DNA from: Roseobacter ponti
GTDB taxonomy: Bacteria > Pseudomonadota > Alphaproteobacteria > Rhodobacterales > Rhodobacteraceae
DNA length: 64,000 nt
NCBI RefSeq assembly: GCF_012932215.1
Contig: NZ_CP048788.1
Coordinates: 3,286,001 to 3,350,000 of the forward strand
Direction: 5' to 3'
Of the stretch, positions 4,535-37,806 are shown piece after piece. The notes beneath the pieces are model-generated. The model saw only the letters and a list, made by a program, of their open reading frames with translations, was not told the DNA's origin and ran no database searches. The translations under genes were made by a program, and so were the position numbers. Positions within the stretch are counted from its first letter, which is position 1; each line of letters starts with the position of its first letter.

Positions 4535-5059
4535 TCAGGCCTTGCCGGTGATGCGCTTCAGCCAGCTCTTTTTTTCCGCCTCCGGTGCATCATCCGCCGG
4601 GGCTTCATCAGACTGCGCCGGCCCTTCGAGCGTTTCCTGCAGATTGGCAAAAAACTGATCCGCCATCTTTTTAGCAAACCCGTCGATGATGCGGCTGCCC
4701 AGCTGCGCCAGCTTCCCCCCAACCTTAGCTTCGACGTCATAGCTGAGCTCGGTCCCGCCATCTTTTGCGGTCATGCGCACCTCGGCGCCGCCTTTGGCGA
4801 ACCCGGCAGCGCCGCCTTTGCCCTCACCCGATATCGTCAGAGAGCTGTCCGGCACCATATCGGACAGGGTCACCCTGCCTTTGAATGTCGCTTTGACCGG
4901 CCCGACCTTCTGCACAACCGTGGCCTCGAAGCCATCTTCCGGCGATCCGGTCACGTCCTGCGCGCCCGGCACACAGGCCTCCAGCACCTCGGGCGTCAGC
5001 AAAGCGGCATAAACCTGCGCCGGTGTTGCGGCGATCTGGCGGGTGTCTGACATCTGCAT
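4535..5059 (-). CDS. CoxG-like SRPBCC protein
   Basis: This 174-residue protein matches the carbon-monoxide-dehydrogenase subunit G (CoxG) family of the START/SRPBCC fold. It has the N-terminal AATPAQVYAALLTPEVLEACVPG motif, GPVKATFKGRVTLSDM, an Ala/Gly-rich GEGKGGAAGFAKGGAEV stretch, and LGSRIIDGFAKKMADQFFANL near the C-terminus. An acidic linker and a basic tail (KKSWLKRITGKA) follow. In CO-dehydrogenase operons CoxG recruits the enzyme to the membrane, but no coxMSL genes are present here. Its partner may be another molybdenum hydroxylase elsewhere. A GGAGG site 6 bases upstream supports the first ATG. Confidence 0.85.
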   Translation of the reverse strand: MQMSDTRQIAATPAQVYAALLTPEVLEACVPGAQDVTGSPEDGFEATVVQKVGPVKATFKGRVTLSDMVPDSSLTISGEGKGGAAGFAKGGAEVRMTAKDGGTELSYDVEAKVGGKLAQLGSRIIDGFAKKMADQFFANLQETLEGPAQSDEAPADDAPEAEKKSWLKRITGKA

Positions 5060-5181
5060 GGGAGCCTCCTTTGCGTCGGTGTCTGTGCAAAGCGTAGCGT
5101 AAGCAATCGGGCCGTGCCATTCGATTTTACCGATGTCGCATTCGGGCTCGACAGCGCGCTGCCGGCTGATAGGTCTGGCAC

Positions 5182-6159
5182 ATGGCCACGCTTCCCGAAA
5201 ACCGCGCCGCAGCCGGCATTTTCTTCGTACTGGGCGGCGTCCTGGCTATTTCGTTCAACGACATGCTGATCAAACAGCTCTCCGGCGGGTATCCCCTGCA
5301 CGAGCTGGTTTTTATCCGTTCTTTTATCGGCATCATCCTGTCGCTTTTTCTGATCCGCATGGAAGGCGGTCTGCAGATCCTGCGCACCAGCCAGCCTATG
5401 CTCCATGCGCTGCGCGGCCTGCTGATTGTGGTCGCCAATATGTGTTATTTCGCGGCACTGGCGGCAATGCCGCTGGCCGATGCCACAGCACTTTTTTTTG
5501 CCGCGCCACTGATCATTACGCTCCTGTCTGTTCCGATGCTGGGCGAAAAAGTCGGGCCTTTGCGGCTTGCCGCCGTGACTGTCGGTTTTGCCGGGGTGGT
5601 CATCATGCAGCGCCCCTGGGCCAGCGCAGAAGAGTTGCAGGTCTCGCGTCTGGTGCTGGTCTTGCCGGTGATCGCGGCACTCACTTATGCTCTGAACCAG
5701 CTGATGACACGCATGCTGGGGGTGAACAGCAAAGCGTCGGCGATGTCGGTCTATGTGCAGCTGGCGTTCATCGTCGTCTCCTCGGGGTTTTTTCTGATCG
5801 CAGGCGACGGGCGCTATGCTGAAGGGCTCGACAACCCTTCGCTGATCTTTCTGTTGCGGCCATGGGTCTGGCCCACGGCACAGGACTGGGTCTGGCTGGT
5901 GACGATGGGGGCGAATGCAGCCATCATCGGGTACTGCCTCAGTCAGGCTTACCGGATCGCCGATGCGGCCACCGTGGCGCCGTTTGAATATGTCGGGCTC
6001 CCGCTTGCCGTGCTCTGGGGATGGCTCATCTTCGGCGATCTGCCGGCACTGGAAGTCTGGATCGGGATCGCGCTGATACTCGGCTCCGGCCTTTTCGTGT
6101 TCCTGCGCGAACAGCACAAGGCCCGCGTGGTCGCGCGGGGCCCTGTGAAACGCAGATGA
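5182..6159 (+). CDS. DMT-superfamily (EamA) transporter
   Basis: The 325-residue protein has about ten membrane spans arranged as two EamA repeats. Repeat signatures include the end of the first half (VTVGFAGVVIMQRPW) and the second half (APFEYVGLPLAVLWGWLIFGDLPALEVWIGIALILGSGLFVFLRE). Family members export amino acids, nucleosides or other metabolites, or take up S-adenosylmethionine. The substrate is not determinable from sequence. It is transcribed divergently from the CoxG-like gene, and the 122 bases between them should hold both promoters. Confidence 0.9.
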   Translation: MATLPENRAAAGIFFVLGGVLAISFNDMLIKQLSGGYPLHELVFIRSFIGIILSLFLIRMEGGLQILRTSQPMLHALRGLLIVVANMCYFAALAAMPLADATALFFAAPLIITLLSVPMLGEKVGPLRLAAVTVGFAGVVIMQRPWASAEELQVSRLVLVLPVIAALTYALNQLMTRMLGVNSKASAMSVYVQLAFIVVSSGFFLIAGDGRYAEGLDNPSLIFLLRPWVWPTAQDWVWLVTMGANAAIIGYCLSQAYRIADAATVAPFEYVGLPLAVLWGWLIFGDLPALEVWIGIALILGSGLFVFLREQHKARVVARGPVKRR

Positions 6160-9964: not shown

Positions 9965-12900
9965 TCACAAACTGATCGAAATAATGCCGTTTTTTTCAGC
10001 GGCCCGGGACTGGCAGAGGATCATACTGTCCTTTCGTTGAGCGCGGGAGAGGACGAAATCGCGGTGCTCTACTGCCCCGGCACGCACTCCGCAGCGGCAG
10101 ACGCCGCACAGACCGTCGCTGCATTTGAGATCCACGGGCACACCGTTTTCGATAAGCACATCAGCAGCAGTTTTATCAGCGGGGACCTCCAGAATACGCC
10201 CGTCCAGGAGCTCCAGCCGGAAAGCGTGGTTCTCAAATTCGGGCACTTCAGGGACGGCGAAATACTCAAGATGCACCGCCCCCTCCGGAAACCCGGCAGC
10301 GCAGGCGGCGTCGGTCACGGCGGCCATGTATGCATCCGGCCCACAGGTATAAATGTGCTGCCCGGACATGTGCGCGCCGATGATCGCAGCAGGATCCGCG
10401 CGCGTTCCCTCGTCTGATACGAAGAGGCGCGTTCGGTCCGCCCATGGGACGCGGGACAAATAATCAATGAATGCGCCCGACGCCCTGTCCGGCACCGAGT
10501 AATTCAGCGTGAAAGGCTTTTGCGCGCGGTGCAGCGCATGCGCCATGGCAACCATCGGCGTGACCCCGATCCCACCACCGAACAGAAGATGCTCTTTCCC
10601 CTCCGCGATCACTGGAAAGTGGTTGATCGGGCGGGAGACAAACACCCGCCGGCCCGGTGTGAATATCCGGTGCAGCAGTGCGGAACCGCCGCGCCCGGCG
10701 TCTTCACGCAACACCGCGATTTCATAGCGTGACCGGTCTGCGGGGTCACCACACATCGAATACTGGCGCAGTTTGTCAGGCGACACCACGACATCCAGAT
10801 GCGCGCCGGCCTCCCATTCTGGCAGATCCGCGCCGTCCGGGTCCTCGAAAATACAGCGCAGGACGCGATCCGACAGGGCCTCGACCGCGGTGAGTGTCAG
10901 GTGCAGCACGGGACTGTCGGTATCATTGCTATAGCGGTGATCCCAGGGGCCGGTTTCGCCCGCAGCGCGCCGTTGCCGGTAGGTCCTCGCCGGAATCATC
11001 TGCCCGTAGGCATCTATTCCGGCCTCCCGGTCCATCGGGAAGGGATAAGGCCAGGGGTGCGGCGCCAGGGGTGCGGGGTAAACGGCCAGCGTCTGGTCTT
11101 CGTATTTCAGATCGAGCCCGGGTTGCAGCGCCCGCGCGTTCACCGGATTGCGGGTGGGCTGGTAGCTGCCGTTATCGGTCAGCTCGATGTCCCACCACCA
11201 TTTTTTGACCGGATTAAGGCCGCCGCGCCCCAGCCTGTCATCGAGTTTCGCGAGCACCGGTGCCGCACCTGGCAGGTTCATCGCGGCCCAGCGGAAGGGC
11301 TTTTCGGCAAAGAGGCCCTCAAGGTTCCAGGGGCAGGTCTTCATGCAGCGCCCGCACATCGCCCCACCGGGCGTAGTGATCCGGTAGGTCGCGCATTTCT
11401 GGCTGTCAGATTTCCAGATTTCGTAACCGTTGAACATCAGTTTCGGCCCGGCGGTGATCGCGCCCGAAGGGCATTCCCGCGCGCATTTGTTGCAGCTTTC
11501 GCAAAACCGCTGCAGGCCGAAATCGATGGGTTTATCGTGAGTGACCGGCATATCGGTGGTCACCACGCCCGATTTCAGGCGCGGCCCGAGAAAGGGGTTC
11601 AGGATGACCTCGCCGATGCGGCTGACCTCGCCCAGACCTGAGAGGAGCAGCAGAGGGGGTTGCAGCACTTCTCCGTCCATAACCGTGTGCGCTTTGGCGC
11701 TGTAGCCCAGGTTGCGGATATGCTGCGCGATGACCCCGCCCAGCAGCGAAAACCGCAGATAGGCGCGCATGGACTGTGCCACGCTGATCCAGTCGTCGCC
11801 GCTTGCCCCCTCCATCGTCTCATAGCCCTGATCGACGATCATGCTGATCGCCTGATCATGGGGCGGCTCGATCACCGCACCGGTGGCGTCATGACTGTAC
11901 CAGGTCCAGTCGGGGCAGCCGCTGATGCCAACAGCGTCGATGCCGAGATAGTAACAGGCAGCTTTGATGTTTTCTGCGTTCCGGAGGGCATCGGTCAGGG
12001 GCGGCGCTGCCGCCTCAGGGCCGTCCTGCAACAGCACAAAAGCACCAAGCATGCGGCGCTGCGCCATCGACGGGGCGGCTTTGCGCGCGTAGTGCCCGCC
12101 GGCGGCTGCCTCCTGACTGGTTTTGCCCATATCTCCGAACTGCGCGCGGGCGAACATGTCTGTACGTTTGGGCACCCTCGCGACGCGTGCCGCGTCGATA
12201 TAGGTCGTGGGGTCCTCAACCCGTTTCAGGGTCTCAAAGGGATGCGGGCCGTCGACGAAATCGCGCCGGGCAAAGGGGTCGCGGTTGCGCGACGAGGTGC
12301 CGATGCCAAAACCCGTCGCCCATGCCAGCCGGTCCCGGAGCGATGGCACCTGCTCCGCCATCGGTGCGAGTGGTGCGTCTTCGTCCAGCGGCATTGTCGT
12401 TGTTACTGCGGCGACACCGAAACGCTCCCCGATCAGCGGGTTGACCAGAACGTCTCCTTCGACGACCGCCAGCCCGGCAGCCACCGTCGCCTGATTGAGA
12501 TCGATATCGGTGCTGGTGAGGGTATGCGCTTTGGCGTCCCAGCCCAGCAGCCGGATGTAATTGGCAATCACCACCGCTGTCTCGGAGGCCCGCAGACAGG
12601 CGCTGTGATGCCCCGCGTCACGGATCCAGTCCGTGCCCCGCTCACCAGGACGCAGCTCGCGCGGCATTTCATAAAGGTAAACGATCACCCGGGTGTGATC
12701 GGTGATGGTGGCGGGCGGGGCCTGCATGCTGTCGCGCAGATCCGCCATGATAATGTCGATGCCGGAGGCAAGGGTCTTAGTCTGCCGCGTTCTGAGGTCT
12801 TCGGCGAGCCGGTCAATATCCGCGTTGCGCCGCGGCTGACCGAGCATGGCAGAGTCGGGCAGAGGCCCGATACCCACCATCGAAGCGTCGTTGAAATAAC

Positions 12901-13174
12901 CGAATGATTTGAGATGCCGTGCCCGCTCGCCGGTATCTTTCGGACATCCCGCGCGGGCGCTGTTGACCATGCCGTCGCGAATCGCATCCATCGTCGCCTG
13001 ATAATCTGCCATTGCATTGACGATCGATGCGGGCTCTTGCGGTCTGCGAAACGTAATCTCTCGCATCGGCGGCACGGTGGCATAATCGGGCGCCGGCCCG
13101 CGCACCAGCCGTTCCAGCGGATAGGGACCCAGATGGGGCGCCCGGTCAGCACTGGAGAATAACCTCCCCGACAT
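9965..13174 (-). CDS. Self-sufficient (BhbA-type) catabolic reductive dehalogenase, RdhA fused to FNR-like/2Fe-2S reductase
   Basis: The 1,069-residue protein has three parts. Residues 1-690 are an RdhA module. Its N-terminal half (about 155-265) is a degenerate copy of the cobalamin-binding half (about 405-545); compare WDAKAHT...VNPLIGERF with YSAKAHT...LNPFLGPRLK. The ferredoxin part has C558/C561/C564/C568 and C594/C607/C610/C614, enough for two 4Fe-4S clusters. Tyr472, Lys534 and Arg598 are spaced exactly as the substrate-site Tyr426, Lys488, Arg552 of the crystallised Nitratireductor enzyme NpRdhA (62 and 64 residues). Residues about 755-970 are FNR-like (RQYSMCG; GGGIGVTPM at 867-875), and 985-1069 carry a plant-type 2Fe-2S site (C1018, C1023, C1026, C1054). 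There is no Tat signal and no rdhB anchor gene, so a cytoplasmic NAD(P)H-driven, cobalamin-dependent dehalogenation of an organohalide is inferred. Confidence 0.92.
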   Translation of the reverse strand: MSGRLFSSADRAPHLGPYPLERLVRGPAPDYATVPPMREITFRRPQEPASIVNAMADYQATMDAIRDGMVNSARAGCPKDTGERARHLKSFGYFNDASMVGIGPLPDSAMLGQPRRNADIDRLAEDLRTRQTKTLASGIDIIMADLRDSMQAPPATITDHTRVIVYLYEMPRELRPGERGTDWIRDAGHHSACLRASETAVVIANYIRLLGWDAKAHTLTSTDIDLNQATVAAGLAVVEGDVLVNPLIGERFGVAAVTTTMPLDEDAPLAPMAEQVPSLRDRLAWATGFGIGTSSRNRDPFARRDFVDGPHPFETLKRVEDPTTYIDAARVARVPKRTDMFARAQFGDMGKTSQEAAAGGHYARKAAPSMAQRRMLGAFVLLQDGPEAAAPPLTDALRNAENIKAACYYLGIDAVGISGCPDWTWYSHDATGAVIEPPHDQAISMIVDQGYETMEGASGDDWISVAQSMRAYLRFSLLGGVIAQHIRNLGYSAKAHTVMDGEVLQPPLLLLSGLGEVSRIGEVILNPFLGPRLKSGVVTTDMPVTHDKPIDFGLQRFCESCNKCARECPSGAITAGPKLMFNGYEIWKSDSQKCATYRITTPGGAMCGRCMKTCPWNLEGLFAEKPFRWAAMNLPGAAPVLAKLDDRLGRGGLNPVKKWWWDIELTDNGSYQPTRNPVNARALQPGLDLKYEDQTLAVYPAPLAPHPWPYPFPMDREAGIDAYGQMIPARTYRQRRAAGETGPWDHRYSNDTDSPVLHLTLTAVEALSDRVLRCIFEDPDGADLPEWEAGAHLDVVVSPDKLRQYSMCGDPADRSRYEIAVLREDAGRGGSALLHRIFTPGRRVFVSRPINHFPVIAEGKEHLLFGGGIGVTPMVAMAHALHRAQKPFTLNYSVPDRASGAFIDYLSRVPWADRTRLFVSDEGTRADPAAIIGAHMSGQHIYTCGPDAYMAAVTDAACAAGFPEGAVHLEYFAVPEVPEFENHAFRLELLDGRILEVPADKTAADVLIENGVPVDLKCSDGLCGVCRCGVRAGAVEHRDFVLSRAQRKDSMILCQSRAAEKNGIISISL

Positions 13175-13324: not shown

Positions 13325-14920
13325 TCAGGCGTCTGCCAGAATCAGATCTGACGCCTTTTCACCGATCATGATCGCCGGCGCATTTGTATTGCCCGACACG
13401 ATCTCTGGCATGATCGAACAATCAGCAACACGCAGGCCTTTGATGCCATGCACCCGCAACCTGTCATCGACAACCGCGTCGGCATCGCTGCCCATTTTGC
13501 AGGTGCCCGTGGGGTGATAAATCGATGCCGTGTTGTTGCGGGCCCAGTCGAGCGTGGCGTCGTAGTCGTTGATATCAAGGCTTGCGTGGGGCCGGTATTC
13601 CTCGGAGATTTTGGAGGTCAGCGGCGCGTGACGTGCGATGGTCCGCGCAATATTGACCCCAGCCACAATCGTCCGGCAATCCGTTTCGGTTGAAAGATAA
13701 TTCGGGATGATCTTCGGGTATTCCCTTGGCCCGGACGAACTCAGGCGGATCTCGCCTTTGCTTTCCGGGCGCAGCTGGCACACGGACATCGTAAAGGCCG
13801 AGAATTTGTCGGCGCCCTTGCCCGGGTTCTCCGCCGAGAGCGGCTGTACATGAAACTGAATGTCCGGCGTTTCCAGATCATCCCGGGATTTCAGAAACCC
13901 GGTGGCAAGGCTCGCAGCCATCGTCATGGGCCCCGCACGGAACATCAGATACTTCAGCCCGATCTTAGCCTGGCCCATCATTGTCGAGACTTCGTCGTTC
14001 AGGGTCGGCTCATTGCATTTATAAACCAGCCGCGCCTGCAGGTGGTCCTGCATGTTCTTGCCCACGCCGCGAAGGTCTTTTTTGACCTCAATCCCATGCT
14101 CAGCAAGCTGTTCCGCCTCGCCGACGCCGGACAACATCAGCAGTTGCGGCGAGTTGATGGCTCCTCCGCACAAAACGATCTCCCTGCGCGCGGTAATGGT
14201 GACCTGCCGCCCGCCGCGATCCCGGTATGTCACGCCTGTGGCGTGGTTATCGGTTATGTCGATTTTATCGACCTGGGCATGCGTGATGATCTGCAGGTTG
14301 GGCCGTTTGCGCGCCGGGTTGAGATAGGCCACCGCGGAGCTGCACCGCCGGCCATTGCGCGAGGTCAGCTGGAAAAAGCCCACCCCTTCCTGATCGGCGC
14401 CGTTGTAATCGGGGTTGAACGGATAGCCCGCGGCCTGCGCGGCTGCCACCCAGGCATCGGTAATCGGACGCTGAATGCGCATGTTTGAGACCGAAAGCGG
14501 GCCCTGATCGCCGTGGAACTCATCGGCGCCGCGTTCGTTGTTTTCGGCACGGCGGAAAAGCGGCAGGACTTCGTCCCAGCCCCAGCCACGGTTGCCCATC
14601 TGCTGCCAGCGGTCGTAATCCTGCGGCTGTCCGCGAACATAGAGCAGCCCGTTAAGCGAAGAAGACCCGCCCAGCACCTTGCCGCGCGGCCATTCGATAG
14701 AGCGCCCGTTCAGCCCCGGATCAGGCTCGGTTTTATAGCACCAGTCGACAGACGGGTTGTGAATTGTCTTGAAGTAACCGACCGGAATATGGATCCAGGG
14801 ATTGAGATCGCGACCGCCTGCCTCCAGCAGAATGACGCTGTTTGAGCTGTCCGCGCTGAGGCGGTTTGCCAGCACACATCCGGCCGAGCCGGCCCCGATT
14901 ACGATAAAATCCGCTTCCAC
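13325..14920 (-). CDS. GMC-family FAD oxidoreductase (choline/alcohol dehydrogenase-like)
   Basis: The 531-residue protein has the GMC layout. The FAD-binding GAGSAGCVLANRLS is at residues 9-22, followed by WPRGKVLGGSSSLNGLLYVRG (GMC signature 1) and GAINSPQLLMLSGVG (GMC signature 2). The catalytic pair is near the C-terminus: His about 469 in YHPTGTCKMG and Asn about 511 in SGNTNAPAIM. The start is set at the GTG at 14920, which has GGGGGA 6 bases upstream. The ATG at 14974 lacks a ribosome site and sits inside an operator-like repeat. The enzyme oxidises an alcohol to an aldehyde. It is divergent from the TRAP operon and lies 150 bases upstream of the dehalogenase gene on the same strand. 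Confidence 0.92.
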   Translation of the reverse strand: MEADFIVIGAGSAGCVLANRLSADSSNSVILLEAGGRDLNPWIHIPVGYFKTIHNPSVDWCYKTEPDPGLNGRSIEWPRGKVLGGSSSLNGLLYVRGQPQDYDRWQQMGNRGWGWDEVLPLFRRAENNERGADEFHGDQGPLSVSNMRIQRPITDAWVAAAQAAGYPFNPDYNGADQEGVGFFQLTSRNGRRCSSAVAYLNPARKRPNLQIITHAQVDKIDITDNHATGVTYRDRGGRQVTITARREIVLCGGAINSPQLLMLSGVGEAEQLAEHGIEVKKDLRGVGKNMQDHLQARLVYKCNEPTLNDEVSTMMGQAKIGLKYLMFRAGPMTMAASLATGFLKSRDDLETPDIQFHVQPLSAENPGKGADKFSAFTMSVCQLRPESKGEIRLSSSGPREYPKIIPNYLSTETDCRTIVAGVNIARTIARHAPLTSKISEEYRPHASLDINDYDATLDWARNNTASIYHPTGTCKMGSDADAVVDDRLRVHGIKGLRVADCSIMPEIVSGNTNAPAIMIGEKASDLILADA

Positions 14921-14936
14921 GACGGCTCCCCCTATG

Positions 14937-14978
14937 TAGTATGAAAAAAACTCTAGGCAAAAACTTAAAGTCATACTA
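14937..14978. promoter_or_regulatory. Inverted repeat, candidate operator between GMC and TRAP genes
   Basis: TAGTATGA (14937-14944) and TCATACTA (14971-14978) are perfect inverted copies with centres 34 bases apart, about three helical turns, in the AT-rich divergent promoter region. A local IclR regulator is encoded at the end of the divergent TRAP operon, so it is the natural candidate to bind here. Binding itself is inference. Confidence 0.4.
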
Positions 14979-15027: not shown

Positions 15028-16260
15028 ATGAAAACATCAAACAATATTAATGGCATATCGCGCCGCGACCTTTTCAGGGTTGCCGGGCGTTATGGCCTGA
15101 GCTCCACGCTCCTCGCAGCGGGTACATTCGGCGGTGCAATGAGTGTTGCAAACCTCGCAAAAGCTGCTGAATCCACTTACGAGAAGCGTTTTTCGAAAGA
15201 AGCCAAACATACTCTGAAATTTGGTGCATCCGGCTTTAACGCTCGCAACCTTCTGATCGAACGTGCCGGCGCTCTGGAATTTGCACGTGACCTCGAAAGC
15301 CGTACCGACGGCGAGATTCGCGTCGAATTCATCGGTGACAACCAGATCTGCGGCCAGACTTCCTGTGTCGAGAAAACCCAGCAGGGCATCGTCGACATCT
15401 ACGCGGCCTCCACCCAGAACTCGGCCGGTGGCGCCCCTTATCTGAACGTTCTCGACTATGCGTATATGTTCCGTAACCGAGCGGACCAGTACCACTTCCT
15501 TTATTCTCCGGCATCCATGGCGCTGCTGCGCGAGCCCTATGAAAAACGCCACGGCCTGAAGTTCCTTTTCAGCCACGCGGAACTCCGCGGCATCCAGCTG
15601 GGTCTGAACTTTGCTGATAAGCCGACGGTGACCTCCATCGACGAGCTCGCAGGCACGAAGAACCGTGTCACAGGTACACAGCTTGGCCGGATCGCTATGG
15701 AAGCACTCAACCTGAACCCGGTTCCGGTTGCCTGGGAAGAAACCCTCGATGGCCTCAAACAGGGCCTGATTGATGGAGCGGAAACTTGGGCCTCTGCGGT
15801 TGCCTATGCGAACATGGCACCGGTTGTGTCGCAGTCTGTTCACCTGAACTTCTTCTGCGGAACCGAGCATACGGCAATGTCAGCGTCCGTCTTTGACGGT
15901 CTCGGCGGCGATCTGCAGGATGCTGTGATGGAATCGTCCTATCTGGCACAGGTCCATGTTCAGGCGGCGAACGAGGTTGCACTTATCAACACCGTTGGTC
16001 AGTCCGATCCGCAGCTTCCGAACACAATCTTTGCTCAGAACGACGTGCGCAACGCGTTCCTGTCTGAGGCTGAGATCAAGAAAGCGGAAGAGATGTGCTC
16101 ACCCGAGTACCAGCCTCAGCTCTGGGAGCAGTGGCGTGAGCGGCTTAACGGCTGGTCCGGTGGCCTCGATACATACCAGGACATCTACAACGAAGTTCGT
16201 ACGATCCCTGGTGACACGCTGCCTGAGAACGTTGAACCCCGCCGGTGGTGGAAAGCCTGA
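15028..16260 (+). CDS. dctP: TRAP transporter substrate-binding protein (DctP family)
   Basis: The 410-residue protein starts with a Tat-type signal: SRRDLFRVAG (twin Arg at 12-13), a hydrophobic stretch, and a likely cleavage near AKAAES at about 46. The mature part has the DctP pattern, including ELAGTKNRVTGTQLGRIAMEALNLNPVPVAWEETLDGLKQGLIDGAE, where the conserved arginine that grips a carboxylate is expected. Export by Tat, folded, is less common for TRAP receptors. It is the first gene of dctP-dctQ-dctM-iclR and has GGGAGG 6 bases before the ATG. The ligand is unknown, probably an organic acid or related compound. Confidence 0.93.
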   Translation: MKTSNNINGISRRDLFRVAGRYGLSSTLLAAGTFGGAMSVANLAKAAESTYEKRFSKEAKHTLKFGASGFNARNLLIERAGALEFARDLESRTDGEIRVEFIGDNQICGQTSCVEKTQQGIVDIYAASTQNSAGGAPYLNVLDYAYMFRNRADQYHFLYSPASMALLREPYEKRHGLKFLFSHAELRGIQLGLNFADKPTVTSIDELAGTKNRVTGTQLGRIAMEALNLNPVPVAWEETLDGLKQGLIDGAETWASAVAYANMAPVVSQSVHLNFFCGTEHTAMSASVFDGLGGDLQDAVMESSYLAQVHVQAANEVALINTVGQSDPQLPNTIFAQNDVRNAFLSEAEIKKAEEMCSPEYQPQLWEQWRERLNGWSGGLDTYQDIYNEVRTIPGDTLPENVEPRRWWKA

Positions 16261-16285
16261 TACAGGCTTAACCTGAAATGAGAAC

Positions 16286-16317
16286 GGGTCGACCTGAAGA
16301 GGAGTTCGGGTCGGCCC
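16286..16317 (+). terminator. Hairpin between dctP and dctQ, likely attenuator or mRNA stabiliser
   Basis: GGGTCGACCTGAA (16286-16298) pairs with TTCGGGTCGGCCC (16305-16317) over 13 positions including two G-U pairs, with a 6-base loop, followed by TGTTTATC. It sits between the receptor gene and the permease genes. Such hairpins commonly let the binding protein be made in excess by partial termination or by protecting its 3' end. Confidence 0.6.
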
Positions 16318-16377
16318 TGTTTATCTCAAAGTCCCGTTTCAAAGCAGCGGGATTCTTAAAAAGAGGGGGAGGTCAGT

Positions 16378-17046
16378 ATGTCGGTATTTGCTGAAGTCGC
16401 GGCCATTGTTTCTGCTATTTTCTCGGGCAGCGCCTGGGAAATGAGCAGCGCATTCGACGCCGGTGGTATGTGGGTGTTCTGTTTCGTGTTCACGCTCGTC
16501 GGGGGATATCTGGCACATCTGTTTTATCAGTATGTGCCCTTTGCGGAAAAGCACCTCGAACGCGGGTTGTCCGTCACGATGTACCTGATAATTGCGGGTA
16601 TCATCTGCTGGGGTGTAATCGACAGGTTTGTTTTTTCAAGCCAGTGGTCGGGATCGACAACAATCCCTCCTTTCCTCTTTATGGTTATGGCGTGGTTCGC
16701 GTGTTCCTATAATGTCAAACTGCGGACGCATCTGAGCTTCAGTGAATTCCGGGCAAAAATGCCGCCGGCAGGCCAGCTCGCCACACTGACGCTGGACGCG
16801 GCCCTCTGGCTCGGTTTCTGCTGGATTGCAATCACAACATCACTGCGCTTCACCGCGCTCTCCGCTGACAACTTCCAGCTGGTCGACGGTGTCGATGACG
16901 TCATGAAGTGGTGGTTCTACCTCACCGTTCCGGTTGCATTCACCCTGATGGCCGGTCGTGTGATCGGCAACTGGCTGGAAGACTGGAGTAACTACCGTTC
17001 CGGCGACCAGATCATTCAACAAGCAGTTATCGGGGGCGATGTATAA
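16378..17046 (+). CDS. dctQ: TRAP transporter small permease (DctQ family)
   Basis: This 222-residue membrane protein has about four or five spans, more than a minimal DctQ, and the small-permease position between receptor and large permease. Hydrophobic segments include the GGMWVFCFVFTLVGGYLAHLF and SVTMYLIIAGIICWGVI regions, with a final span near LTVPVAFTLMAGRVIGNWL. Its stop overlaps the dctM start by one base (TAATG), so the two are translationally coupled. An AGAGGGGGAGG ribosome site precedes it. Its role is the scaffold of the Na+-driven uptake complex. Confidence 0.88.
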   Translation: MSVFAEVAAIVSAIFSGSAWEMSSAFDAGGMWVFCFVFTLVGGYLAHLFYQYVPFAEKHLERGLSVTMYLIIAGIICWGVIDRFVFSSQWSGSTTIPPFLFMVMAWFACSYNVKLRTHLSFSEFRAKMPPAGQLATLTLDAALWLGFCWIAITTSLRFTALSADNFQLVDGVDDVMKWWFYLTVPVAFTLMAGRVIGNWLEDWSNYRSGDQIIQQAVIGGDV

Positions 17047-18404
17047 TGTCTGACGGATCCTGGATTACACTTATTTCGATCGCCGTGACCATGCTGTTCA
17101 TGCTCGGCACACCGGTTCTGCTGGTTATCTTTTACTGGGTGATCGGGTGCAGCTTTGTCATCGATCTGCCTCTCTCCAATACCGGCAACGAGCTGATCAA
17201 CGTCTTCAGTAAAGGCTTTGCGCTGCTGGCCATGCCGCTTTTCATCCTGACAGGGGATCTGATCAACCAGTCAGGTATTGCCCGGCGATTGTCCAATTTT
17301 GCCTATTCCTGTCTGGGGTGGCTGCGCGGCGGACTGGCGATGGCATCCATCGCGGCCTGCGGTCTTTTCGCGGCGATCTCCGGATCGAACTCGGCCACGA
17401 CAGCAACCATCGGTTCAATGCTGCACCCTGAGATGGTCAAAGGTAACTATGATGAACGGTTTTCCGCGGCGACGGCTGCTGCGGGCGGTACGGTCGGGAT
17501 TATCATTCCGCCGTCGATCATCTTCATCGTTTACGGCTTCCTGATGAACCTGCCGATTTCAGAGCTGTTCATCGCGGGTATCGTGCCCGGCACGCTGATG
17601 GTCATCGCCATGATGACGGTGGCTTTCATCGTCTGCACCATCAACGGCTGGGGCATCCTGATCGGACTGTCTTTTCAGCGCGTCCTCAAAACCGCTTTCG
17701 GGGCCTGGCTCGGTTTCTTTGCCATCGGCCTCGTGCTCTGGGGCATCTACACCGGTAAGTTCTCTCCCACTGAGGCTGCGGGTATCACTGTCGGGTTCTG
17801 TGTGTTCGTCGGACTGCTCTGCTATCCGCTGAACAAGCTCATGGGCAGCGCCGCGGATGTACCGGTCGAGGAAAAGAGCTTTATGTCGATGTTTGTTGTC
17901 GAAGGCTTCACCCTGCCAAGCGTACCCAGCATTGTATCGCGCTCCGCACAGATCACCGGCATTCTGGTGCCGCTGATTGCGGTATCTGTCGCGATGCAGC
18001 AGGTTCTGTCGTCACTGGGAGCGAAAGAATATATCGGTGATTTTGTCACCGGTATGGGCGGCTACTATGCGGTGCTCTTTACCGCCATGGCCATCGTGTT
18101 CGTCACTGGTATGATCCTTGAATCGCTGCCCGTTACGATCATTCTGGCCCCCATTCTGGCGCCGATCGCGGTGTCGGTCGGTGTGGATCCGATCCACTTT
18201 GCGGTGGTCTTCCTCGTGGGTGCATCCATCGGCTTTATCACACCGCCGTATGGTCTGAACCTTTACGTCGCGTCGGGCGTGACGGGGGTGCCTTACTTCC
18301 GGTTGCTCAAGTATTCTACAATGTACCTGGTCGCGCTTATGGCCACCTGGATTCTTGTGGCACTGACACCTGATCTGGCGCTTATGCTGCTGCCTGAAAG
18401 ATAA
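17046..18404 (+). CDS. dctM: TRAP transporter large permease (DctM family)
   Basis: The 452-residue protein has the DctM multi-span layout. It contains GSNSATTATIGSMLHPEM (the first re-entrant hairpin motif), AAAGGTVGIIIPPSIIFIVYG, TEAAGITVGFCVFVG and GASIGFITPPYGLNLYVASGV. These are the Na+ and substrate translocation hairpins of the family. It sits in operon with dctP and dctQ, and the IclR gene follows 11 bases downstream. Confidence 0.95.
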   Translation: MSDGSWITLISIAVTMLFMLGTPVLLVIFYWVIGCSFVIDLPLSNTGNELINVFSKGFALLAMPLFILTGDLINQSGIARRLSNFAYSCLGWLRGGLAMASIAACGLFAAISGSNSATTATIGSMLHPEMVKGNYDERFSAATAAAGGTVGIIIPPSIIFIVYGFLMNLPISELFIAGIVPGTLMVIAMMTVAFIVCTINGWGILIGLSFQRVLKTAFGAWLGFFAIGLVLWGIYTGKFSPTEAAGITVGFCVFVGLLCYPLNKLMGSAADVPVEEKSFMSMFVVEGFTLPSVPSIVSRSAQITGILVPLIAVSVAMQQVLSSLGAKEYIGDFVTGMGGYYAVLFTAMAIVFVTGMILESLPVTIILAPILAPIAVSVGVDPIHFAVVFLVGASIGFITPPYGLNLYVASGVTGVPYFRLLKYSTMYLVALMATWILVALTPDLALMLLPER

Positions 18405-18415
18405 GGTAGATAACC

Positions 18416-19198
18416 ATGGCAAACGACCTCACTTCATCAGACAAGCAAACCCAGATTCCAACGAACCTGAGACTGCTGATCCTGTTGGAGGAGGTCGTTA
18501 AAGCCGGCGTGCCCGTCACGCCTTCGGTCATAAAAGACGAAATCAATCTGCCGAAACCCACTCTGCACCGGCTCTTCAACACCGCCGAGGCAGAGGGGTT
18601 TCTGCAGCGCGACATTGACGGACGCTCCTACAGCCCCGGACCCCGATTGCGCCAGATCGCGGTTCACACGATCTCTTCACAGCGTGTCCGGTCATTGCGG
18701 CTCATTATTCTGCGCAGCGTTGCGGCGGAGATCGGTGAGACCTGCAATATCGCCATGCCCGACCGGGAGGGGATGACTTATCTCGACCGGGTCGAGACAC
18801 ACTGGCCGCTGCGCATTCAGCTGCCTGTCGGGACACAGGTCCCGTTTCACTGTACGGCCAGCGGCAAGATGTTCCTGTCGTCCCTGCGCCCGGCCTATTT
18901 CAACCACTATCTGGAGAGCGCCGTTCTGGAGCCACACGGGCCCGGTACGATCACAGACAAGGCGGCGCTGCGGGACGAAATCGAAATGACCCGAAAACGC
19001 GGGTACTCGACAGATAACCAGGAGTTTATGGAAGACATGGCAGCGGTCGCGGTGCCGATCGTGGACGGCCAGAAACGCCTGATGACCACGCTGTCGGTAC
19101 ACGCGCCGATCCAGCGCCACTCTCTCGAAGGCCTGATCGACCATGTCGATGTCCTCAAGGCAGGCGCGGAAAAGCTTTCCGAACAGATCCGGTCCTGA
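18416..19198 (+). CDS. IclR-family transcriptional regulator of the TRAP operon
   Basis: The 260-residue regulator has an N-terminal winged helix (VTPSVIKDEINLPKPTLHRLFNTAEAEGFLQRD, about residues 34-66) and the IclR effector domain (MPDREGMTYLDRVETHWPLRIQLPVGTQVPFHCTASGKMFLS; later DNQEFMEDMAAVAVPIVDG). It is the last gene of the dctPQM operon. IclR proteins commonly sense the transported or catabolised compound. It probably controls both this operon and the divergent GMC gene through the repeats at 14937-15001. Whether it activates or represses is not visible. Confidence 0.92.
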   Translation: MANDLTSSDKQTQIPTNLRLLILLEEVVKAGVPVTPSVIKDEINLPKPTLHRLFNTAEAEGFLQRDIDGRSYSPGPRLRQIAVHTISSQRVRSLRLIILRSVAAEIGETCNIAMPDREGMTYLDRVETHWPLRIQLPVGTQVPFHCTASGKMFLSSLRPAYFNHYLESAVLEPHGPGTITDKAALRDEIEMTRKRGYSTDNQEFMEDMAAVAVPIVDGQKRLMTTLSVHAPIQRHSLEGLIDHVDVLKAGAEKLSEQIRS

Positions 19199-20553: not shown

Positions 20554-20567
20554 GCATTCAACAGATC

Positions 20568-20742
20568 AAGCTGTACCGGGAGAAGACGGGCAACCGTCGC
20601 CGAAGGAGCAACCGCCCCGGAAACTCTCAGGTCCAAGGACCGGTACAGCTTAAACACTCCGGAAAGCGGCCCCTCGCATTGGGGTCCACCGTAGGAGAAA
20701 GCCCGGGTTCCGGGTGAAACTCTCAGGTTCCATGCACGGAGG
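20568..20742 (+). ncRNA. Tandem glycine riboswitch
   Basis: Two glycine aptamers lie end to end. Aptamer 1 is closed by AGCTGTACCGG (from 20569) pairing with CCGGTACAGCT (to about 20650) and contains GCCGAAGGAGCAACCGCC and AACTCTCAGGTCC. Aptamer 2 (about 20656-20742) is closed by CTCCG/CGGAG and contains CCGTAGGAGAAAGCCCGG and AACTCTCAGGTTCC. Both carry the diagnostic GGAG-A and AACTCTCAGG boxes. A GCGGCT-CAA-AGCCGC hairpin (20749-20763) follows, and then the AAGGAG ribosome site of the dehydrogenase, consistent with a translational expression platform. Binding glycine would be expected to turn the gene on. Confidence 0.93.
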
Positions 20743-20748
20743 GGGCAA

Positions 20749-20763
20749 GCGGCTCAAAGCCGC
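20749..20763 (+). promoter_or_regulatory. Expression-platform hairpin downstream of glycine riboswitch
   Basis: GCGGCT and AGCCGC form a 6-bp stem with a 3-base loop, 20 bases before the ATG and just upstream of AAGGAG. There is no T-run, so translation control is more likely than transcription termination. Confidence 0.45.
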
Positions 20764-20782
20764 GCGTGCAAGGAGAAATGCT

Positions 20783-22036
20783 ATGACTTCAGTTGCTGTA
20801 ATCGGCGCCGGCGTGACCGGTCTGACCACTGCTTATGAGCTGCTCGACCGCGGCTATGACGTCACTGTTTACGACCGCCACCGCTATGCGGCGATGGAGA
20901 CCAGCTTTGCCAACGGAGGGCAGCTTTCTGCCTCCAATGCCGAAGTCTGGACACAGTGGGGCACCATCATCAAGGGCCTGAAATGGATGCTGCACGCGGA
21001 TGCACCGCTTCTGGTGAACCCGGCACCGACCCTGCACAAAATGCGATGGATGGCCGAGTTCCTCTCCAATATCCCGAACTACAAACGCAACACTGTCGAA
21101 ACTGTCCGCATGGCGATTGCCGCGCGCGGCGTTCTTTTCGACATGGCTGACCGCGAAGGTATCGATTTCGACCTTGAGCGCCGTGGCATCCTGCATTTCT
21201 ACAGCAACGAAAAAGACATGGCGCATGCGCGCAAAGTGAACACGCTGCTGGCCGAAGGTGGTCTGGAGCGGCGCGAGCTTAAGGGCGGTGAGCTGCGCGA
21301 TGTGGAACCCGCGCTGCAGGGTGATTTCGTCGGCGGTTTTCTGACAGAGTCAGACAGCTCCGGCGATATCCACAAATTCACCATGGGCCTTGCGCGTGCC
21401 TGCGCGCGCCGCGGTGCGACGCTCCGTTTTGGTGCCAGAGTTGAGCATCTGAGTGCAGAAGACGGAATTGTCCGCGTCACCGAAGCTGGTCGCGATGAGA
21501 CCTATGACGCCATCGTCGTCAGTGCGGGCATTGAAAGCCGCGAGTTCGCCCGTCAGCTCGGCGACCGGGTTAACATCTATCCGGTCAAAGGTTATTCGGT
21601 CACCGTCTCGCTCGATGATGCCGAGAGCCGCGCCGCTGCCCCCTGGATCAGCCTTCTGGATGACCGGGCGAAAATCGTGGCGAGCCGCTTTGGCGAAAAC
21701 CGCTTCCGCATCGCGGGTACTGCAGAATTCAACGGTGCCAACCGCGACATTCGTGCCGATCGGATCAAACCGCTGACCGACTGGTGCGAACGGTACTTCC
21801 CGGGTGTCTCCACCGAGACCGTCACCCCCTGGGCCGGTCTGCGCCCCATGATGCCGTCGATGCTGCCCCGCGTGGGACGCGGCCGCGCGCCCGGTGTGTT
21901 CTACAACACTGGCCACGGTCACCTCGGCTGGACACTGTCTGCTGCCACAGCCCGTATCGTCGCAGGCTCGGTTGCCGAAAGCCTCAGGGCCGACGCACAT
22001 GTCGTGTCGCGCCCCGGAAAGGCCGTCGCAGTCTGA
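20783..22036 (+). CDS. dadA: DadA-like FAD-dependent D-amino acid dehydrogenase under glycine control
   Basis: The 417-residue protein opens with the FAD motif VAVIGAGVTGLTTAYELLDRGYDVTVYDR and has FANGGQLSASNAEVW, typical of DadA. Further DadA/DAO features are ILHFYSNEKDM, SDSSGDIHKFTMGLA, YPVKGYSVTV and the C-terminal GLRPMMPSMLPRVG...YNTGHGHLGWTLSAATARIVA. It oxidatively deaminates D-amino acids, passing electrons to the respiratory chain. The ATG at 20783 follows AAGGAG. An upstream in-frame ATG at 20714 lies inside the riboswitch and is rejected. The riboswitch leader suggests that glycine, or a pathway yielding it, is the physiological signal and perhaps substrate. Confidence 0.9.
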   Translation: MTSVAVIGAGVTGLTTAYELLDRGYDVTVYDRHRYAAMETSFANGGQLSASNAEVWTQWGTIIKGLKWMLHADAPLLVNPAPTLHKMRWMAEFLSNIPNYKRNTVETVRMAIAARGVLFDMADREGIDFDLERRGILHFYSNEKDMAHARKVNTLLAEGGLERRELKGGELRDVEPALQGDFVGGFLTESDSSGDIHKFTMGLARACARRGATLRFGARVEHLSAEDGIVRVTEAGRDETYDAIVVSAGIESREFARQLGDRVNIYPVKGYSVTVSLDDAESRAAAPWISLLDDRAKIVASRFGENRFRIAGTAEFNGANRDIRADRIKPLTDWCERYFPGVSTETVTPWAGLRPMMPSMLPRVGRGRAPGVFYNTGHGHLGWTLSAATARIVAGSVAESLRADAHVVSRPGKAVAV

Positions 22037-34791: not shown

Positions 34792-36129
34792 TCAGCCCGC
34801 AGGCCCGCCACCGGGCAGACGGACGACAGCACTCCGCCGGTAAAGCGATGTCACCTGACGGTGCCGGGTGCGGAACTGGCTGCGTCTTTTGAGCGCCGGC
34901 CGTGCGCCTGCGCGTTCCTCCAGTTTCAACGCCGGGTCATAGCTTACCACCCCCGCCGCAAAAGCGCGCAGCAGCAGGAAGAAATCAGTCCCTTCACACA
35001 GCAACACGTCCCGTCCGTAAGCGTATTCCACCGGCGGCCCGCGCCTGACCGAAGGGACATAGCAGGCCTGCGCATGTTTGCGGTTCCAGTGCGCGATCAG
35101 CCCGGTGTAATTCCAGAAGGCAGCGATACCACCATCACTATCTTTCAGAAAAAGACCGCCCTCAATGTCAGTGATCCGGCCCGCCTGCGGATCAAAGCCG
35201 TCCATCTCCAAAGAAAGCCCCGTCAGCGCAACGGGTCCGCTGCCAACGGTATAGACGCCGCCAAAATTCAGGCGATCCGGCCTGCCTGAGCGGTCAGGGT
35301 ATCCGTAGCGGCGCACGAATGCTTCCGCCCCCGCCTCGCGGTAGAAGCCGCCCGTGGGTTCAGGGGTCATCAGCGTCACAGCGCTGCGTGGGGTGTTGCG
35401 CACAAAGTCAGACACTCCGAACTGCTTGATTTCCCAACCTTGAAAATCAGGCGCTGCATGTCCGTTGGGGCGTATCCCGAGGGCAGCCTCGAGGGTGTAT
35501 CCACCACCGTTTGGCGCCCGGTATGGCACAGGACCATCGGCGCCGAGTTTTTGTGAGGGCAGCCATCCGGCGTCTGCAATATCCGTCAGTCCGGCGATCA
35601 GCATGCTGCGGGTATCGGTGCCGGTGTGTAGCAGGCCCAGATTGCTGAAAACGCCACGGCTTTCGAACTGACCGGCATCTCTGAAGGCGCGTACCACCGG
35701 GTCTTCGGCAAATCCTGCCCACGCGAGAATGCGTTCCCCCGGCACAACGCCGAGAAACAGCACGCGACCCGGTGCCCGCGAGCGGATGACGTCGGCGGGC
35801 GCACCCTCCGCGCCGCGCAGTAACCCCGAGAGGCGCACCTCAGGATAGGCCGGATACAAAATCAGCTGTGCATCGGGTGCGCGCGACAGACCGTCCGGCA
35901 ACAGCCAGTCCCAGATCAGCGGTGCTTTGACCCGGTCCCGGCGGCTGCCCGCAAGATCTGAGGTATCCGTGACCAGCCCGCCCTGTGGCAGAATGTTCAG
36001 CACACCGAAATCTGAGCCCAGATAGAGCTGATTCTTTGAATTATCGTTGGGTGCGAGCTCTTTGGCGAGAAATCCGGTCGCCCCTGTCGCCTCCATCCTC
36101 AAAATGAGCGCGGTCAGGGCGTCAGCCAT
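34792..36129 (-). CDS. MvaI/BcnI-family type II restriction endonuclease
   Basis: The 445-residue protein has the PD-(D/E)xK site of MvaI/BcnI nucleases: YTLEAALGIRPNGHAAPDF followed by GWEIKQFGV (Asp228, Glu233, Lys235). It is longer than MvaI (about 246 residues), the extra being an N-terminal region of about 200 residues. The start overlaps the vsr stop by one base (TAATG), and vsr overlaps the methyltransferase gene, giving a three-gene system M-vsr-R. By analogy the target would be CCNGG-like. Predicted specificity is inference. The C-terminus has a basic tail. Confidence 0.82.
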   Translation of the reverse strand: MADALTALILRMEATGATGFLAKELAPNDNSKNQLYLGSDFGVLNILPQGGLVTDTSDLAGSRRDRVKAPLIWDWLLPDGLSRAPDAQLILYPAYPEVRLSGLLRGAEGAPADVIRSRAPGRVLFLGVVPGERILAWAGFAEDPVVRAFRDAGQFESRGVFSNLGLLHTGTDTRSMLIAGLTDIADAGWLPSQKLGADGPVPYRAPNGGGYTLEAALGIRPNGHAAPDFQGWEIKQFGVSDFVRNTPRSAVTLMTPEPTGGFYREAGAEAFVRRYGYPDRSGRPDRLNFGGVYTVGSGPVALTGLSLEMDGFDPQAGRITDIEGGLFLKDSDGGIAAFWNYTGLIAHWNRKHAQACYVPSVRRGPPVEYAYGRDVLLCEGTDFFLLLRAFAAGVVSYDPALKLEERAGARPALKRRSQFRTRHRQVTSLYRRSAVVRLPGGGPAG

Positions 36130-36584
36130 TACGCGCGCCCCCTTATTTCAAGCTGCTCACCGCCTTCAGGCAACCAGGCCGCGAGGGCACCGGCCACGGC
36201 TTCTGCGCCGATCTTCTGCTGTCCCCTGAGCGCGCATTCCCAGATTGTCCCCACCCGCCACCCACCGGCGAGAAGTTCTGCCTCCTGCCTGGTGTCGCGT
36301 TCGCGGTTGCCGGTGATCTTGGCCTCCCAGAACGCGGTGCGGGTCGCGGGCAAGCGAAAGAGCGGACAGTCATGTCCGTGCCAGAAACAGCCATGCACAA
36401 AGATGACAGCCCGGTATTTTCTGAGCACCAGATCAGGACGCCCCGGCAGGCCTGCACCATGCAGACGGAACCGGAACCCCCGGGCATGCAGCGCGCGGCG
36501 GATCTGATGTTCGGGCTTTGTGTTTTTGCCGCGGACCGCGGACATATTGCGGCTGCGCGTGGCCGGGTCGTGAACGTCAGCCAC
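36129..36584 (-). CDS. vsr: Vsr very-short-patch mismatch-repair endonuclease
   Basis: The 151-residue protein has all Vsr hallmarks: RSRNMSAVRGKNTKPE, the catalytic aspartate in PGRPDLVLRKYRAVIFVHGCFWHGHDC, the zinc-site histidine/cysteine cluster (HGCFWHGHDC), FWEAKITGNRERD, and W at WRVGTIWECAL. Vsr nicks beside T:G mismatches made when 5-methylcytosine deaminates, so its presence predicts a C5-cytosine methyltransferase, which is encoded immediately upstream with an 8-base overlap. This is a complete protein with no sign of decay. Confidence 0.97.
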   Translation of the reverse strand: MADVHDPATRSRNMSAVRGKNTKPEHQIRRALHARGFRFRLHGAGLPGRPDLVLRKYRAVIFVHGCFWHGHDCPLFRLPATRTAFWEAKITGNRERDTRQEAELLAGGWRVGTIWECALRGQQKIGAEAVAGALAAWLPEGGEQLEIRGRA

Positions 36585-37806
36585 CGGCGGCCAGTCTTTG
36601 CGGCGCGGCCTCCCGCATCACGGTCAGAATATGAGGCTGCATGACCCGTGCGACCTCGGCAAAAACCGGAACGGCGACGGAATTGCCGAACTGTTTATAG
36701 GCCTGGGTGTCGGAGACCGGGATACGGAAACTTTCAGGATAGCCCATGAGCCGCGCGCATTCCCGGGGCGTCAGACGGCGCGGATTGAGGCCCTCGCCAC
36801 GGCTCACGAGAATCTCCGAGCCATCCTTGTAATATCGTGCGGAGAGCGTGCGCGCGATGCTGTCACCCGTCACGAGGCCATAGCCAAAACCGTTGCCTGC
36901 GGCTTTGTGCTTGGCCGCGTAGGCCTGCAGGTAGGCCCATAGTTTATCGGTAAGTGTATATTTGTCGCTGACCCGTGCATCCGCCCCGAGGGTGTAATGC
37001 CCTTCGGGCGCCTCGCTGCCATCTGAAGGATGCAGGACATCACGCACCCGCAGATGCCCACGTTCGGGCACCTGCATATCGTCAAAGCTGAACGGCACCG
37101 GATCGCGGAAACCGACAATAACGATGCGTTCGCGGTGCTGGGGCACGAAATGCGCCGCATCGATCACGCGGGTATGCAGGGTGTACCCAAGTTCTGCTGT
37201 GAGTTTGCGGCGGATCACTTCAAAGGTCTTGCCCTTATCGTGGCTTTTGAGGTTTTTCACGTTTTCCAGCAGAAACGCCGCGGGGCGATGGTGTTTCAGC
37301 ACCCGAAGGACATCGAAAAAGAGGGTGCCCTGGGTTTCATCGTCAAAGCCATGTGCGCGCCCGAGTGCGTTCTTTTTGGAAACGCCGGCGATGGAGAAGG
37401 GCTGGCAGGGAAAGCCTGCGACCAGCACGTCATGCGCGGGAATGTCTGCCGCGTCGACGTCGCGGATGTCACCGGCAAGGGGTCGGTTGTCTGGGAAATT
37501 TGCGAGATACGTCTGCTGTGCGTATTTGTCCCACTCGGAGGTGAAGACACAGCGCCCGCCCGCGCCCTCCATCGCTTTGCGCAGACCACCGATGCCGGCG
37601 AACAGATCAGCGAATGTGAAAACCGTTTCAGCCGGTGCCGCTTTGCGGGTGTCGATTTCCATGCGCAGCAGGTTCAGCACCGCTTCGCGCGGGACCTCTT
37701 CGCCGCGCTTCCAGCGGTAAATATGCCCTTCTGAATAGCCAAGCAGTTTCGCAGCTTCCGGCACACTGTGCCCTGCTTTGCGCAGCAAAAGGTCGAATTC
37801 GGTCAT
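36577..37806 (-). CDS. C5-cytosine DNA methyltransferase (Dcm-like) with N-terminal HTH
   Basis: The 409-residue enzyme has motif I FADLFAGIGGLRKAM, motif IV VLVAGFPCQPFSIAG with the nucleophile cysteine, motif VI FLLENVKNL, motif VIII QHRERI and motif X-type QFGNSVAVPVFAEVA. An N-terminal HTH of about 45 residues (EAAKLLGYSEGHIYRWKRGEEVPREAV) could autoregulate the operon, as seen for several m5C methyltransferases. The product is 5-methylcytosine in a CC(N)GG-type site, inferred from the Vsr and MvaI/BcnI neighbours. It leads the operon. Upstream is AGGAAGAG. Confidence 0.95.
   Translation of the reverse strand: MTEFDLLLRKAGHSVPEAAKLLGYSEGHIYRWKRGEEVPREAVLNLLRMEIDTRKAAPAETVFTFADLFAGIGGLRKAMEGAGGRCVFTSEWDKYAQQTYLANFPDNRPLAGDIRDVDAADIPAHDVLVAGFPCQPFSIAGVSKKNALGRAHGFDDETQGTLFFDVLRVLKHHRPAAFLLENVKNLKSHDKGKTFEVIRRKLTAELGYTLHTRVIDAAHFVPQHRERIVIVGFRDPVPFSFDDMQVPERGHLRVRDVLHPSDGSEAPEGHYTLGADARVSDKYTLTDKLWAYLQAYAAKHKAAGNGFGYGLVTGDSIARTLSARYYKDGSEILVSRGEGLNPRRLTPRECARLMGYPESFRIPVSDTQAYKQFGNSVAVPVFAEVARVMQPHILTVMREAAPQRLAAGG

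Follow-up and report, generated by a model that had tools for sequence, protein, structure and literature searches.

A JtRdhA/BhbA-type self-sufficient reductive dehalogenase, probably debrominating phenols, in Roseobacter ponti and throughout the sampled genomes of its genus

The best-known reductive dehalogenases come from anaerobes and polluted soil. This study concerns a gene for a self-sufficient reductive dehalogenase in a 64,000-nucleotide stretch of Roseobacter ponti DNA (contig NZ_CP048788.1, positions 3,286,001 to 3,350,000; hereafter the window). The nearest functional precedent is JtRdhA from Jhaorihella thermophila (WP_104007082), described by Fisher et al. (2023; PMC10463259). 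According to that description, JtRdhA joins a duplicated RdhA module and a PDOR-type flavin mononucleotide (FMN)/2Fe-2S reductase in one chain, has no twin-arginine translocation (Tat) signal, and carries an insert relative to NpRdhA as well as residues matching NpRdhA F291, S422, M423, Y426, K488, and R552. The same account presents the enzyme as dependent on reduced nicotinamide adenine dinucleotide phosphate (NADPH), tightly coupled, and air-stable. It debrominates ortho-bromophenols, acts on bromo- and iodophenols, and is inhibited by the chlorinated compounds tested; bromo-hydroxyphenylacetate is also taken.

Three other described enzymes serve for comparison. BhbA from Comamonas sp. 7D-2 is encoded on plasmid pBHB (L007), adjoining transhydrogenase genes. 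NpRdhA from Nitratireductor pacificus (4ras, 6zxu, 6zxx, 6zy1), whose chains have 704-725 residues, carries no fused reductase. Ros_A3X954 from Roseobacter sp. MED193 is reported by Li et al. (2026; PMC13101508) as a Roseobacter-clade reductive dehalogenase that is described without a Tat signal and debrominates 2,6-dibromophenol. It is short and non-fused, and was rejected as an orthologue of the window protein because its cluster motifs lie at residues 283-345 (PMC13101508). MED193 additionally encodes a fused dehalogenase (L043) that shares 71% identity with that in the window. Putative bhbA homologues are stated, with reference to Chen et al., to be widespread in the Roseobacter clade (PMC13101508). 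As far as these two accounts go (PMC10463259; PMC13101508), both the fused kind and its wide spread are thus already published, and the window enzyme is a fresh example of an already characterised JtRdhA-like architecture, not a novelty. What is new here is the occurrence of full-length copies throughout the genus, at differing sites and in differing versions. Our literature search turned up no published report of a genus-wide presence of the fused dehalogenase.

The gene is an intact open reading frame (ORF) with an ATG start (Table 1). Its product scores 203 bits against the NCBIfam reductive dehalogenase model TIGR02486 (curated cut-off 160.35), and Pfam recognizes a 4Fe-4S dicluster and a 2Fe-2S domain. 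In a PDB sequence search, the top match is NpRdhA (6zxu/4ras; E ~1e-149) over most of the RdhA part, followed over residues ~757-1061 by P450-reductase fusions (self-sufficient P450s) and phthalate dioxygenase reductase (PDR). NpRdhA aligns over residues 5-740 and is also the best structural match of the predicted fold. The RdhA module is duplicated in tandem: model stretches 80-309 and 311-590 both align to QueG or PceA folds. The reductase module (residues ~753-1069) is matched by 2pia and P450-PDR fusions in sequence and fold, would be expected to bind FMN, and contains the motifs RxYS and GGIGVTP; several NCBIfam flavin/2Fe-2S reductase models match the C-terminal third, each under its own cut-off. 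Eight cluster cysteines (558, 561, 564, 568, 594, 607, 610, and 614) and a 2Fe-2S cysteine set (1018, 1023, 1026, and 1054) were located. The insert that NpRdhA lacks is filled in all six fused relatives inspected, and it may be the fusion-specific insert of JtRdhA, the latter known by its published description. The initial annotation had read from the sequence a single 1,069-residue chain with a cobalamin domain, two 4Fe-4S clusters, and a 2Fe-2S reductase, and the NCBIfam, Pfam, and PDB matches confirm this layout. Its proposal of self-sufficiency is borne out by the flavin/2Fe-2S reductase fused in the same chain. It also claimed that no Tat signal is present, and the twin-arginine pattern RRxF[LIVM]K was indeed not found in the protein by a motif scan. 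Among the Pfam-scanned neighbours, in a screen covering ORFs of ~90 amino acids or more, there is no candidate for an rdhB-like anchor gene.

The alignment maps NpRdhA Y426, K488, and R552 to Y472, K534, and R598 of the window protein, exactly as the initial annotation had proposed, and the spacings it gave, 62 and 64 residues, are correct. NpRdhA S422, M423, and F291 are likewise retained, as S468, M469, and F341. All six residues and both sets of cysteines are invariant in 123/123 fused rows, a set that includes the window's own sequence and was reached after removal of 11 duplicates and a short row (L004). Going by the published description of JtRdhA rather than its sequence, the two enzymes have in common the fusion, the duplicated module, the insert relative to NpRdhA, the lack of a Tat signal, and the catalytic residues, and they differ in genus. 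BhbA shows the same domain order as the window protein and 47.6% identity over the whole chain, whereas its pocket has F340, S362, S465, and A498 in place of M, Y, V, and V. In a 43-row dehalogenase tree, in which 11/40 inner branches are open and NpRdhA sits on a long branch, BhbA and Nitratireductor sp. OM-1 branch together and do not belong to the clade holding the window protein. The label "BhbA type" first given to the protein fits its fused architecture, but its closest functional precedent is JtRdhA. The accompanying statement that the family is not new, with BhbA and NpRdhA as known members, is right about the family, except that NpRdhA itself has no reductase part.

The assignment of the enzyme is strong: the window protein is very likely a JtRdhA/BhbA-type self-sufficient reductive dehalogenase acting on ortho-bromo- or iodophenols with NADPH. 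The scheme proposed below starts from the sequence, motifs, fold, and family-wide conservation established for this protein and borrows the cofactors, the route of the electrons, the chemistry, and the preference for halogens from JtRdhA and NpRdhA. NADPH would reduce the flavin bound by the PDR-type module at the C-terminus, and electrons would then pass through the 2Fe-2S centre and the two 4Fe-4S clusters to base-off cobalamin. A phenol with bromine or iodine next to the hydroxyl would have its halogen bound at the cobalt, Tyr472 (with Lys534) would be the proton donor, and the dehalogenated phenol and halide would be released. Judged by its sequence, the window enzyme probably debrominates phenols with NADPH. 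Its likeliest natural substrates would be marine bromophenols and bromo-hydroxybenzoates, and a product such as 4-hydroxybenzoate could feed the host's own pobA/pca pathway.

The fused dehalogenase is not rare in the family. At a match threshold of E ≤ 1e-100, with the window's own genome included, 114/295 sampled family genomes (113/294 genera) have a match, and in 109 of these 114 a single match covers residues 6-1004 or more; the five without are G033, G099, G102, G160, and G269. Two of them carry two adjacent ORFs, meeting at residues ~388-401 in G269 (G269:C1:2006487-2009686) and ~329-335 in G099 (G099:C4:333242-336426), which are broken or naturally split halves. Matches were found in 31/385 genomes of the class sample, and 22 of the 31 stop by residue 753, i.e. 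they are without the reductase part. All genomes of the window's genus (19/19) encode one full copy each, at full length and with 60-100% identity. The first placement of the host among the Alphaproteobacteria agrees with Roseobacter insulae being a congener, and the host is probably marine, as judged from its relatives. In R. insulae (L039), the last 900 residues of the dehalogenase are those of the same-genus genome G298.

The genus copies fall into three types, A (8 genomes), B (9), and C (2), each at its own chromosomal site. Type B copies have an aldehyde dehydrogenase family gene close downstream, and in most of these loci there is in addition a gene for a copper chaperone, TatD, or a DNA polymerase III delta-type protein; the two type C genomes have two other downstream families in common. 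The types form separate clades with support of 1.0 each in a 124-row dehalogenase tree, and a single clade for all 19 genus copies is rejected (approximately unbiased test, p 1.2e-50; LG+G4, 19 rows vs 24). Types A, B, and C each fail to form a clade in the rpoB tree (p 7.6e-5, 8.2e-7, and 2.0e-6), which requires at least five type changes; for example, G310 (type B) is sister to G298 (type A). Dehalogenase and rpoB distances are correlated (Mantel r 0.50, with 0/2000 permutations as high), so their history is partly common. Replacement between lineages would be the simplest reading of the three types, with rpoB representing one gene; losses from a multi-copy ancestor are a possible alternative.

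Type B also differs in the putative substrate pocket. Phe362 and Asn498, both NpRdhA-like, occur together in 9/9 type B enzymes and in 0/114 other fused rows. The positions diagnostic for type B number 21; the RdhA part, up to residue 740, has 20 of them and the reductase the remaining one, or 20/455 versus 1/163 per eligible position (Fisher p 0.021), which modestly points to a difference in substrate rather than in electron supply. Types A and C have two diagnostic positions each, one per part, and we therefore assert a pocket difference for type B and for neither of these two. In the 43-row tree, type B is the earliest branch among the window's relatives, so its NpRdhA-like residues may be a retained older state, not a new specificity. 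These patterns suggest a conserved debrominating function with swapped alleles. We tentatively propose, at a confidence well below that of the enzyme assignment, that debromination may be a core trait of the genus, kept in every sampled species, with three alleles at different sites replacing one another and type B carrying F362/N498 instead of Y362/V498, so that species would retune their substrates.

Several points weigh against the preferred, JtRdhA-like reading of the enzyme. In both structure models, most of residues 554-589, in the region of the cluster loops, have a predicted local distance difference test (pLDDT) score below 50. Five of 11 compared pocket positions differ from NpRdhA (Phe290 to Met340, Phe310 to Tyr362, Pro311 to Ala363, Ala419 to Val465, and Asn452 to Val498), so the substrates of NpRdhA are not simply transferable. 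No neighbour in the window points to a halogenated substrate. The activity of Ros_A3X954 is reported to be lost in oxygen (Li et al., 2026, PMC13101508). Full-length copies in 7/7 and 22/25 genomes of two further genera come from genera picked since a member was positive, and 3/25 genomes of one of them are without the dehalogenase.

A total of 87 neighbourhoods (7 plasmid and 80 genome loci) were inspected among relatives; a usable dehalogenase ORF was not recovered in L049, L086, and L092, and L004 yielded only a 605-amino-acid piece. The commonest neighbour clusters occur in just 12/87 loci, mostly Ruegeria, so there is no general partner. In L085 (L085:8284-9990), L100 (L100:8312-9988), and L108 (L108:8313-9989), a sulfatase-family gene precedes the dehalogenase at a distance of 10, 6, and 5 bases, respectively; the three loci belong to one Rhodobacteraceae, one Hyphomicrobiales, and one Alphaproteobacteria; such a gene is also found within the same locus in L098 (L098:3210-4850) and L086 (L086:1508-3172). 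The sulfatase assignment has Pfam support for L085, and the NCBIfam matches of L100, L108, L098, and L086 are under curated cut-offs. An oligopeptide-type ATP-binding cassette transporter ATPase gene precedes the sulfatase gene in L100. Marine algae produce bromophenol sulfates, and these neighbours could serve the import and desulfation of sulfated bromophenols. The pobA gene (4-hydroxybenzoate 3-monooxygenase; above cut-off) starts 7 bases after the dehalogenase in L093 (L093:13221-14408) and 9 bases after it in L095 (L095:13211-14389), and lies nearby on the opposite strand in L006. A TRAP large permease gene directly precedes the dehalogenase in L057 and L071 and, by annotation, in L004. 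In L062, the dehalogenase comes after a betB-betA pair, both above cut-offs; this is an ordinary pair, so the GMC enzyme adjoining the dehalogenase there gives no hint of coupling. The neighbours in relatives would fit phenolic, partly carboxylated or sulfated aromatic substrates.

In the host genome, CobN is above cut-off, two cobalamin riboswitch matches lie outside the window, and pobA and pcaH are within ~1 kb of each other. With these genes and riboswitches present, a cofactor route and a 4-hydroxybenzoate route look available, and both may serve the dehalogenase. A catabolic role of the window enzyme is plausible. The strongest competing explanation is detoxification or halide scavenging, by which toxic bromophenols from algae and hosts would be cleared and the carbon skeleton not necessarily consumed. 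This is a serious possibility, although we hold it to be clearly the less probable one: the occurrence of the gene in 19/19 genus genomes yet at three kinds of site, with no neighbour cluster exceeding the 12 loci noted above, would suit it, while the host's pobA and pcaH and the pobA or TRAP genes directly adjoining the dehalogenase in some relatives speak for consumption of the product. Since every sampled genus genome carries the gene while its locus shifts, we think that it has a regular function in these bacteria and is not an occasional pollutant pathway.

A halogenated amino acid, such as a halotyrosine, or some other organohalide beyond the simple halophenols is unlikely to be what the enzyme mainly acts on in nature. 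The five pocket departures from NpRdhA at M340, Y362, A363, V465, and V498 leave room for such a substrate, as do the iodinated phenols and bromo-hydroxyphenylacetate accepted by JtRdhA according to its description (PMC10463259), but the hydroxyl-binding S468, K534, and R598 are retained in all 123 fused rows, which argues for a phenol.

A further explanation draws on the genes beside the dehalogenase in the window, where a TRAP transporter would import an alcohol- or acid-bearing halo-aromatic, a GMC oxidoreductase would oxidise it, and the dehalogenase would take off the halogen. The GMC gene lies on the same strand as the dehalogenase, the TRAP and IclR genes are divergent from GMC, and DUF1045 and zinc alcohol dehydrogenase genes follow downstream of the dehalogenase. 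GMC adjoins the dehalogenase in 8/8 type A genomes, with gene order otherwise conserved apart from the G302 contig, which starts within the TRAP genes, and G266, where no DUF1045 was found. A GMC orthologue is present in 19/19 genus genomes (86-100% identity; three matches read through one stop codon). However, 11/11 type B and C genomes keep IclR, DctP, DctQ, DctM, and GMC side by side in a fetched stretch that contains no dehalogenase, and in three of these (L167, L168, and L171) GMC leads straight into DUF1045 or the alcohol dehydrogenase within ~450 bp. Among the others, DUF1045 lies 4 to 7 kb further in 2/11, and neither DUF1045 nor the alcohol dehydrogenase was found in 6/11. The IclR-TRAP-GMC block is therefore a locus of the genus and uninformative on substrate; GMC and TRAP were rejected as functional partners, and such an operon is very improbable. 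The early suggestion that the gene context might be new is of no help for the same reason. In Shimia (L081:1-17509), an other-clade dehalogenase lies near the window's chromosomal block, and the GMC-TRAP segment is in inverted orientation.

Identity as a QueG-like protein or another cobalamin reductase without dehalogenating activity, a clustering that had been named at the outset as able to overturn the assignment, is most improbable, as the protein scores 21.5 bits against TIGR00276 (cut-off 200), is above the TIGR02486 cut-off, and was rejected as a QueG member. Least credible is a respiratory dehalogenase coupled to energy conservation, which has the RdhA domain in common with the window protein but is contradicted by the lack of a Tat motif, the reductase fused in cis, and the lack of a respiratory partner among the scanned neighbours.

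Other features of the window were also recorded. No cobalamin riboswitch was found in it at the Rfam gathering score, and its sole Rfam match is a glycine riboswitch (20567-20652; 64.4 bits) that precedes a gene for a DAO-family FAD oxidoreductase (20714-22036). A promoter and terminator scan gave counts like those of shuffled sequence and yielded no usable signal. An MvaI/BcnI-type restriction endonuclease and a C5 cytosine methylase, with a 151-amino-acid ORF between them (34792-37806), are likely a restriction-modification system. Within 4996-6159, the apparent real gene encodes an EamA transporter (5182-6159, plus strand), with same-length ORFs in L038 and L039, and the overlapping minus-strand ORF 4996-6117 is apparently not a real gene.

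Table 1. Positions in the window of the dehalogenase gene, its parts, and the adjoining genes
Feature	Position	Strand	Basis
Self-sufficient reductive dehalogenase gene, 1,069 amino acids	9965..13174	-	ORF call, NCBIfam, PDB sequence matches
N-terminal RdhA-like copy of duplicated cobalamin-fold module, residues 1-~330 (boundary estimated)	12185..13174	-	Model fold alignment, NpRdhA alignment
Insert, residues 106-147, without counterpart in NpRdhA	12734..12859	-	Alignment
Catalytic RdhA copy, residues ~331-740, carrying Ser468, Tyr472, Lys534, Arg598	10955..12184	-	NpRdhA mapping, fold alignment
Stretch for two 4Fe-4S clusters, residues 558-617	11324..11503	-	PF13484, PF12838, cysteine motifs
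PDR-type flavin/NAD(P)H module, residues 753-973	10256..10918	-	Matches to 2pia, 6laa, 6kbh; fold
Plant-type 2Fe-2S domain, residues ~985-1069	9968..10222	-	PF00111 at 992-1058, cysteine motif
GMC oxidoreductase, ~150 bp upstream, judged not coupled	13325..14974	-	Pfam/NCBIfam
TRAP transporter DctP, DctQ, DctM and IclR-type regulator, judged not coupled	15028..19198	+	Pfam/NCBIfam

The interest of the enzyme lies in its genus-wide presence with a changing locus and pocket, a pattern that, read from the sequences, is suggestive. If the proposed reading is true, with every sampled species carrying a single-chain NADPH-driven form, aerobic debromination would be an ordinary component of bromine cycling in the ocean. 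The pocket variants Y362/V498 and F362/N498, with S362/A498 of BhbA, would then provide a natural panel bearing on how bromine and not chlorine is accepted.

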